DNA of 24,851 nucleotides from a virus, in the IMG/VR virus record IMGVR_UViG_3300032086_003184, positions 1-24,851 of that record, one strand, 5' to 3'. Each line of letters begins with the position of its first letter. Position 1 is the stretch's first letter. Positions 3,364 to 12,402 of the stretch are shown here, one piece after another. The notes under the pieces were generated by a model. It had not been told where the DNA came from and did no database searches. It saw nothing but the letters and a program-made list of their open reading frames with translations. A program made the translations under genes and the position numbers.

Positions 3364-3399
3364 CTAGGCATTGAGTCCCCATCCTCATGTAAGTCCTAG
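3364..3399 (+). promoter_or_regulatory. TAAGT-bulge leader hairpin, copy 3
   Basis: CTAGG (3364-3368) pairs with CCTAG (3395-3399). CAT (3369-3371) pairs with ATG (3387-3389). The bulge TAAGT (3390-3394) is on the 3' side. The apical loop is longer here (15 nt). A run of six T begins a few bases after the stem, so this copy could also terminate transcription, but copies 2, 4 and 5 lack such a run. It ends 21 nt before ATG 3421. Confidence 0.7.
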
Positions 3400-5803: not shown

Positions 5804-5973
5804 TGCCACAACAGCAAGGAGAGTATGGAACTTACACCTGCCCTGTTTGCGATTCTTTATTTACCAGGCGATTATCTAGCGTTCGTACTAGCTTAAAGAA
5901 GAGCAAGTCTGGTCCTTATTGTTCCAAGTCTTGCGCAGCAAAGATTAGTTATCTAATCCGCAAGGGAGTGTAG
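5803..5973 (+). CDS. CxxC/CxxxC zinc-finger peptide (56 aa)
   Basis: A short ORF coupled by TGATG to the gene before it. Cys13-x2-Cys16 and Cys40-x3-Cys44 form a probable zinc site, followed by a basic helix (AAKISYLIRKGV). The spacing CxxC-X23-CxxxC and the TCxxCxSxFTR start are the same as in residues 14-46 of the protein at 7562, so the two are paralogous modules. The TAG stop (5971-5973) lies inside the tRNA gene, overlapping its acceptor stem by 10 nt. Confidence 0.7.
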   Translation: MPQQQGEYGTYTCPVCDSLFTRRLSSVRTSLKKSKSGPYCSKSCAAKISYLIRKGV

Positions 5974-6037
5974 CCCAATTGGCAGAGGCAAACGACTTAA
6001 AATCGTTTCAGTGTGGGTTCGAATCCCACCACTCCTA
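5964..6037 (+). tRNA. tRNA-Leu-like, anticodon UAA, short variable loop
   Basis: A complete cloverleaf can be drawn. The acceptor GGGAGTG pairs with CACTCCT (6030-6036; the first pair is G-U). A GCC/GGC D stem follows, then the anticodon stem AACGA/TCGTT with loop CTTAAAA giving anticodon TAA. The T arm is GTGGG-TTCGAAT-CCCAC and the discriminator is A6037. CCA is not encoded. UAA reads Leu UUA codons, which are common in this window. The variable loop is only 5 nt, whereas bacterial Leu tRNAs normally carry a long variable arm, so charging identity is uncertain. Confidence 0.9.
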
Positions 6038-6038
6038 T

Positions 6039-6150
6039 TGGTAAGGGCGTCCCAGCACAGTGATCAAACTGCACTGGGATTCACTTACCACTCGAAGGAA
6101 ACCACAAAAACTCCGAGTCCCTTGGGGTTGACGTGGTTCTTCTTCACCCC
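6039..6150 (+). ncRNA. Structured RNA after the tRNA: three hairpins with possible kissing loops
   Basis: Hairpin 1: TGGTAAG (6039-6045) with CTTACCA (6084-6090), then TCCCAG (6050-6055) with CTGGGA (6074-6079), then CAGT (6058-6061) with ACTG (6068-6071). Hairpin 2: ACTCG (6090-6094) with CGAGT (6114-6118). Hairpin 3: GGGGT (6124-6128) with ACCCC (6146-6150). The loop of hairpin 2 contains AACCAC (6100-6105), complementary to GTGGTT (6133-6138) in the loop of hairpin 3, so a 6-bp kiss can form. There is no ORF here. It begins one base after the tRNA and ends 24 nt before the next gene. It may be a processed small RNA or a leader for that gene. Confidence 0.6.
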
Positions 6151-6174
6151 TGTTTACTTTAATTCAACTCAATC

Positions 6175-6531
6175 ATGTTTGCAGTAATCAAACAGCTCAT
6201 TCCTCAATTCCATGCTTATGCAGACCAAGATGGTCGCTATAACATGGGAGCTACATGGACTGATCAAGCAGGCCTGCAGGACTATCACAACGTCCAAGTC
6301 ATGTATGTCCGCAACTCAGAGGCCCTTGCGCTCCAGGGTGATCCTCAGCCTGATGGCAGCTTTAAATACACCGAACCTAATGGTCGGGTTCATGTCATGG
6401 AGGCTGATCGAGTCACAAAATTTATGGAGCAAACTTCAAAGCAAGCTACTGTAATGGCTGGCATGCTTGATAAATTAAAAGAATACGAAAGTGTCGGTCA
6501 AACACTGGACACCACAGCTAAGGCAGCTTAA
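6175..6531 (+). CDS. Hypothetical protein (118 aa)
   Basis: A 118-aa protein directly preceded by AATTCAACTCAATC and then ATG, the clearest example of the recurring leader. The N-terminal half looks beta-rich (FHAYADQDGRYNMGATWTDQ, HNVQVMYVRNSEALALQG). The C-terminal third is an amphipathic helix (ADRVTKFMEQTSKQATVMAG). It lies between the structured RNA and a strong terminator, so it is probably the last gene of its transcription unit. Family not recognised. Confidence 0.7.
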   Translation: MFAVIKQLIPQFHAYADQDGRYNMGATWTDQAGLQDYHNVQVMYVRNSEALALQGDPQPDGSFKYTEPNGRVHVMEADRVTKFMEQTSKQATVMAGMLDKLKEYESVGQTLDTTAKAA

Positions 6532-8417: not shown

Positions 8418-8463
8418 CCAGTGCCCGTTCCATCACTGGTAAGCATGCGCCCCATGTGGGGTG
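8418..8463. repeat. Two hairpins in the divergent promoter gap
   Basis: CCAGTG (8418-8423) pairs with CACTGG (8434-8439), and CGCCCC (8448-8453) with GGGGTG (8458-8463) around ATGT, followed by GAACGTATTTTT on the + strand. The second could be a weak terminator or an operator. Both lie between the leftward DUF4278-like gene and the rightward GP88-like gene. Confidence 0.45.
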
Positions 8464-8484
8464 AACGTATTTTTAGTTTACCTC

Positions 8485-8512
8485 CTAGGCATCTTTATAG
8501 TGTAAGTCCTAG
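8485..8512 (+). promoter_or_regulatory. TAAGT-bulge leader hairpin, copy 4
   Basis: CTAGG (8485-8489) pairs with CCTAG (8508-8512), and CAT (8490-8492) with GTG (8500-8502). The bulge TAAGT is at 8503-8507 and the loop is CTTTATA. It is the most compact copy and ends 26 nt before ATG 8539. The leader continues with GTCCAACTCAA, as after copy 2. Confidence 0.75.
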
Positions 8513-8538: not shown

Positions 8539-9303
8539 ATGCAAACTCTCAAATTTTCAACTGGCAACGCCAAGCTCAGCAAACGTCTAATCTTTTCTTT
8601 GCCAGCAGGGCATTCATGTCCCTGGGCAGGCAGTTGCCGTACATATGCCAGTAGAGCTGATGGCACAATCATTGACCATCCGACACCAGGTAACTCTGTT
8701 ATTCCTGAGTTCAGATGCTTTGCTGCTATGGCTGAGGTAAGGCCCAACGTACGCAATGCACGTTGGTACAACTGGGATCTCATCAGATCTACTCTTTATA
8801 AAGAAGAAGGTGAACAGCTGGATGATTTGATTCAACTGATTGACACTTCTATGACTGTCCAAAAACCATTGCCTTTAGTTCGCGTTCATGAATCAGGTGA
8901 TTTTTGGACTGATAATTATTTTCGTGCTTGGATGGCAGTAGCAGCTAGTAGGCCGAAACAAATCTTTTATGCGTACACCAAAGCACTTACTTTGTGGTAC
9001 AACTATCGACATGAGATTCCAGACAACTTTAAGCTAACTGCATCCTATGGCGGAAAGTTAGATGATATGATCGCACAATTCCCCGATGTTTTTACTCGCT
9101 ATTCTCGTGTGGTTTATACACAAAAGGAAGCAGATGACCTCGGGCTCTCAGTTGATCACGATGATTCTCACTGTCTTGGCGATGAGCCTTTTGCTCTTCT
9201 CGTCCACGGGTCTCAACGTGCAGGATCAGAAGCCAGTAAAGCGATTTCAGAACGAAAGAGAAACGGAAGTTTTGTTGGATACGGTCAAGCATCTCAGAAA
9301 TAA
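8539..9303 (+). CDS. GP88-family phage protein (254 aa)
   Basis: The sequence follows the phage 'Gene product 88' pattern. An N-terminal LKFSTGNAKLSK is followed by FSLPAGHSCPWAGSCRTYAS (Cys27, Cys33), then FRCFAAMAEVRPNVRNARWYN (Cys60), and a central VRVHESGDFWTDNYFRAW with ASRPKQIFYAYTKAL. The three conserved Cys suggest a metal or Fe-S site, but the family's activity is not known to me. It is preceded by leader hairpin copy 4 and starts the replication block, so a role in early DNA or nucleotide metabolism is inferred from context only. Confidence 0.8.
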   Translation: MQTLKFSTGNAKLSKRLIFSLPAGHSCPWAGSCRTYASRADGTIIDHPTPGNSVIPEFRCFAAMAEVRPNVRNARWYNWDLIRSTLYKEEGEQLDDLIQLIDTSMTVQKPLPLVRVHESGDFWTDNYFRAWMAVAASRPKQIFYAYTKALTLWYNYRHEIPDNFKLTASYGGKLDDMIAQFPDVFTRYSRVVYTQKEADDLGLSVDHDDSHCLGDEPFALLVHGSQRAGSEASKAISERKRNGSFVGYGQASQK

Positions 9304-12359: not shown

Positions 12360-12402
12360 CAGTGGGCAACGGCATCTCATTGATGGTGTGTAAGTCCCAC
12401 TG
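12360..12402 (+). promoter_or_regulatory. TAAGT-bulge leader hairpin, copy 5
   Basis: CAGTGGG (12360-12366) pairs perfectly with CCCACTG (12396-12402). CA (12367-12368) pairs with TG (12389-12390), and the bulge TAAGT is at 12391-12395. The apical part contains its own CATC/GATG hairpin (12373-12376 with 12382-12385). P1 base pairs differ from those of copies 1-4 while the bulge is unchanged. It ends 33 nt before ATG 12436. A TACAAT hexamer (12352-12357) just upstream could be a -10 box. Confidence 0.75.

Follow-up and report, generated by a model that had tools for sequence, protein, structure and literature searches.

Cobalamin-type riboswitches contain a core hairpin loop that kisses a hairpin located further 3', close to where the next gene begins. 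GOLLD and ROOL, found in phages and prophages, are structured orphan RNAs that are often encoded near tRNA genes and are rich in kissing loops; they are hundreds of nucleotides long and multimeric (PMC12286853). The structured RNA motifs manA, wcaG and PhotoRC-II are found in cyanophages, with manA and wcaG located in probable 5' UTRs (PMC2864571). Phage RNA classes backed by covariation are uncommon and the roles of most are not known.

Here, we analyzed a 24.9-kb record (the window), a genome fragment of a freshwater cyanobacterial virus. It represents a Synechococcus phage S-EIVl-like cyanophage with a DNA polymerase 66% identical to that of S-EIVl and a gene order agreeing with S-EIVl and IMG/VR relatives. 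A structured stretch follows directly after a tRNA-Leu(UAA) gene and precedes an ORF of 118 codons (Table 1). Based on sequence comparison, the RNA in this stretch represents a previously undescribed structured family of S-EIVl-like cyanophages. None of the families in Rfam 15 reached the gathering threshold (best match RsaE, 26.1 bits vs 79), ribozyme families gave no match and the GOLLD and ROOL models showed no combined sequence and structure match. Like GOLLD and ROOL, the RNA is carried by phages and contains kissing loops, and in the window it also has a tRNA neighbor. In contrast, it is only ca. 110 nt long, its kissing contact forms within one molecule, its sequence, size and structure differ and proximity to tRNA genes is not a trait of the family. 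Cyanophage carriage is shared with manA, wcaG and PhotoRC-II, but the sequences differ and none of the three matched here. The docking of a core loop to a downstream hairpin near the next gene resembles cobalamin-type riboswitches by analogy, not by membership; no Rfam cobalamin match was found and the conserved sequence boxes of that class were not recognized. The same phages also carry a glutamine-II (downstream-peptide) riboswitch (RF01704), which is a separate element on the minus strand (8418-8470), whereas the phage genes lie on the other strand; it is retained at the equivalent position in loci L002, L003 and L004.

Table 1. Features of the RNA and its surroundings in the window (window coordinates).
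Feature	Position	Strand	Remarks
tRNA-Leu(UAA)	5964..6037	+	5' neighbor of the RNA in this phage; CCA not encoded
Whole RNA domain (~110 nt)	6043..6150	+	conserved unit; present in 18 further distinct phage sequences, flanks differing
P0, 5' strand AAGGG	6043..6047	+	pairs with 6119-6123
P0, 3' strand CCCTT	6119..6123	+	pairs with 6043-6047
Pa, 5' strand	6050..6054	+	pairs with 6075-6079
Pa, 3' strand	6075..6079	+	pairs with 6050-6054
Pa inner hairpin	6058..6071	+	stem 6058-6060:6069-6071 covaries A-U/G-C
P1 hairpin	6090..6118	+	stem 6090-6097:6111-6118; 5/8 pairs covary
Kissing hexamer AACCAC, P1 loop	6100..6105	+	100% paired with 6133-6138 (18 sequences)
P2 hairpin	6124..6150	+	stem 6124-6128:6146-6150; 4/5 pairs covary
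Kissing hexamer GTGGTT, P2 loop	6133..6138	+	pairs with 6100-6105; GCTGCT, GTAGCT in relatives
ORF6175 (118 aa)	6175..6531	+	3' of the RNA; function not assigned; conserved in S-EIVl-like phages
Second motif copies	1251-1307, 2812-2840, 3364-3399, 8485-8512, 12360-12402	+	

Fold of the RNA and its covariation

The stretch from 6038 to 6174 folds with a minimum free energy of -51.7 kcal/mol (z = -6.2), equaled by 0 of 200 shuffles, and exceeds in stability all 826 tiles of 115 nt from both strands of the window. An earlier note, made from this one sequence, had described a three-tier hairpin and two smaller hairpins with exactly complementary loop hexamers that can kiss, and had argued that such complementarity is unlikely by chance. 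The hexamers are indeed exact complements. The chance argument fails, since shuffling this stretch produces one or more complementary hexamer pairs in 65% of cases. In addition, the minimum-energy fold is one long nested hairpin (6094-6145) with the hexamer pair as its middle stem. Because the hexamers are nested in this fold and shuffles often hold complementary pairs, a single sequence is insufficient to decide on a kissing interaction. The two smaller hairpins stand as P1 and P2, while the outermost tier (GGTAAG:CTTACC) was rejected as a conserved element; it is perfect in the window only and shows many mismatches in relatives. Its place is taken by P0, a longer-range helix kept by relatives that the earlier note had missed.

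We compared 19 distinct sequences (alignment A8) using a model consisting of P0, Pa with its inner stem, P1, P2 and the kissing helix. Of the 580 cells of this model, 96.7% are paired. Compensatory changes on both sides were found for 17 of the 32 pairs, compared with one to four when partners were slid. As a null, we used a simple simulation built for this analysis, running along the RNA tree with changes per column matched and sites independent, which yielded a mean of 5.5 and a maximum of 12 double-change pairs in 1000 runs. Judged from this alignment, the RNA is a structured, conserved element with compensatory changes beyond chance. RNAalifold, given the alignment only, recovers P0, Pa, most of P1 and P2. 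P0 is paired in 100% of cases (18 sequences) with one double change from G-C to A-U, and three of the five pairs of the outer Pa helix covary. One pair of the Pa inner stem has lost both partners in L070. The unpaired segments of the RNA are conserved as well. The apical loop of Pa reads TGATCA in the window, with GATCA kept in all full-length copies and GATCAA in most.

The kissing helix contains three double-change pairs in two lineages, the loops being AACCAC:GTGGTT in the window, AGCAGC:GCTGCT in most carriers and AGCTAC:GTAGCT in L070. A fully paired kissing helix was found in 0 of 20,000 simulations; the double-change count alone is weaker evidence, with 31 of 1000 simulations reaching three. 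The kissing loops are thus borne out by comparison, not by energy minimization, and the paired changes that the earlier note had suggested looking for in relatives are present both in the stems and in the hexamers. This covariation rules out that the hexamers are complementary by chance, which would be likely for a single sequence. That the minimum-energy fold is correct, with one long nested hairpin and no kissing loops, is very improbable. It is the lowest-energy fold in the window (P0, Pa, P1 and P2 together reach -24.2 kcal/mol before kissing energy) and fits many carriers, though not all. However, the pairs specific to it are formed in only 81% of cells and fail in many relatives, its double changes fall mostly in the shared hexamer, and P1 and P2 covary, which led us to reject it as the common fold. 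Covariation instead makes it near-certain that P0 closes a junction holding Pa and P1, that P2 follows, and that pairing between the P1 and P2 loops locks both hairpins.

Distribution, genomic context and inheritance

The immediate neighborhood of the RNA yielded few relatives. The L002 record begins inside the RNA, in its 3' half. Other loci, including L003 and L004, contain the tRNA-Leu or ORF6175 but lack the RNA at that site. Among the fetched loci, a sequence-profile search identified full-length homologs in L010, L011 and L013 at another site, between thyX and a homolog of the window gene at 8539-9303, a member of the GP88 family (PF17338). Later searches by pattern scans and covariance models (window match at 6040-6151, 112.9 bits) brought the total to 25 records including the window, representing the 19 distinct sequences. 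Forty records were searched whole, of which 21 carry the RNA; the remaining carriers are the window and three further contigs. Exactly one copy is present in each carrier record. The other 19 records searched whole, S-EIVl among them, are without it, some of these records being fragments. Searching INPHARED phages with the L010 copy gave no match. A host origin, though possible, gained no support from one genome pattern scan, using a pattern that covers only some RNA variants. Among its 15 matches, only L034, L046 and L047 rose above background in the model search (20-21 bits); they are weak, mostly confined to the searched motif, and none is cyanobacterial by record title.

Most carriers have the RNA in the interval from thyX to the GP88 gene, several of them with other ORFs between the RNA and GP88. 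In every carrier inspected, it lies on the same strand as its neighbors, 18-65 nt 5' of an ATG. The gene immediately 3' of the RNA is GP88 in most carriers, ORF6175 in the window and L002, and other ORFs in L032, L057, L067, L108 and L120; these downstream ORFs differ among carriers and mostly have no assigned function. ORF6175 has homologs at 21 IMG/VR loci and in S-EIVl and no match in PHROG or Pfam. The upstream reading frame terminates within the RNA in at least 8 of 15 carriers examined, ending in EGVTSR, EGVTSQ or EGVTPQ before the stop, and by eye also in L108 and L116. A 58-aa ORF crossing the RNA region of the window (6011-6187) is mechanical only and no gene candidate. Endonuclease-like ORFs (HNH or homing, by eye) are located near the RNA in L032 (2839-3393, minus strand), L067 (3' of the RNA) and L010 (8872-9417) and may be a source of the variable gene content there.

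The coupling of RNA and tRNA proposed in the earlier note is no general feature. Among all carriers, the window alone has a tRNA directly upstream; where a tRNA is found in the others, it lies about 2.5 kb or more upstream. Relatives with adjacent tRNA-Leu and ORF6175 have only ca. 20-65 nt between the two and no RNA, so a general rule of tRNA linkage was discarded. The tRNA-Leu of the window has no encoded CCA and lacks the long variable arm that is typical of tRNA-Leu; unlike the window, relatives encode the CCA in their tRNAs at the corresponding site, which vary in length (73-89 nt) and all carry the anticodon UAA.

On the DNA polymerase tree, the window and L002 are sister taxa and both carry the RNA ahead of ORF6175. 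The presence of the RNA requires 2 changes on this tree compared with 12.1 for shuffled labels, indicating that it is old, mainly vertically inherited and relocated in the window/L002 lineage. A freely mobile or multi-copy element was rejected, since each carrier has the RNA only once and the tree requires just two changes. Between the window and L002, the RNA is the best conserved segment (38/44 identical positions), compared with 17/27 for the spacer and 257/357 for the coding sequence.

Possible roles of the RNA

A regulatory role of the RNA is plausible. Our main reading, to which we assign a probability of roughly 45%, is that of an intercistronic leader or regulatory RNA, a leader mechanism being the most likely of several. 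The RNA would be transcribed within a polycistronic message, as no conserved promoter of its own was seen. Many carriers have no non-coding room for one, with the upstream frame terminating within the RNA, which argues for a leader. A promoter inside P2 (TTGACG-18-TATAAT) was noted by eye in one subclade only and dismissed. As a leader, the RNA would control the gene beginning 18-65 nt downstream. The kissing contact between P1 and P2 may dock and undock, perhaps set by a protein or metabolite that binds the conserved loop of Pa and the junction, and the docking state could determine whether the compact fold or the competing nested hairpin is adopted, altering translation or processing. No Shine-Dalgarno sequestration or terminator was identified at the RNA, which counts against a leader, as does the variable downstream gene. 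At the gene starts of these phages (window 6160-6175, for example), a recurrent unstructured CAACTCA-type spacer precedes the ATG; a Shine-Dalgarno sequence is not evident there.

Retention of the fold after relocation also suits a free-standing small RNA, cut from the operon transcript and acting in trans on RNAs or proteins of the host or the phage, with incidental neighbors. This is possible but doubtful: the RNA moved between loci yet stayed intact (window and L002 vs the rest), downstream genes differ and each carrier record holds one copy, whereas neither an own promoter nor a terminator was found and the position is always just 5' of an ORF. It is unlikely that the RNA instead serves as an RNA-processing, stability or self-cleavage element separating cistrons, which in the window would be the tRNA and the mRNA. 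The location at gene boundaries, the direct contact with the 3' end of a tRNA without encoded CCA in the window and a second sense-strand hairpin motif at comparable inter-gene sites would fit such an element, but no Rfam ribozyme family matched and upstream reading frames enter the RNA in many carriers. Both are serious rivals of the leader reading, given the variable downstream gene and the persistence of the RNA through relocation.

A more specific and rather speculative proposal is a new class of riboswitch or ribozyme, restricted to these freshwater cyanophages, whose junction core would sense an infection signal and whose P1-P2 kiss would act as the switch. If the RNA does sense a ligand, it would represent a new phage-borne switch. 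Its small size, defined fold and explicit covarying tertiary contact make it open to probing, mutation and reporter tests. S-EIVl-like cyanophages carry RNA elements missing from current libraries, possibly steering the infected cyanobacterial cell.

Other hairpins in this phage group

A second structured motif of the type NNNNGGCAU-hairpin-GUGUAAGUCCNNNN is dispersed in the window. Four copies satisfy a strict descriptor for which no matches are expected in shuffles; the copy at 1251-1307 passed a looser one. In related loci, the motif is almost always located between genes on the gene-sense strand. An Rfam search with one copy gave no match. It may serve this phage group as a leader or processing element present in multiple copies. 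The GP88 gene of the window and of L002 is preceded by this motif (8485-8512 and L002 1838-1881, respectively), not by the kissing RNA. A small conserved hairpin of the GTCCTAAGCATGACGTTAAACT or GGACCTGGGATGTCCTTAAACT type is located ahead of the next ORF just 3' of the RNA in L010 (7817-7850) and other carriers, and after a tRNA in L007.
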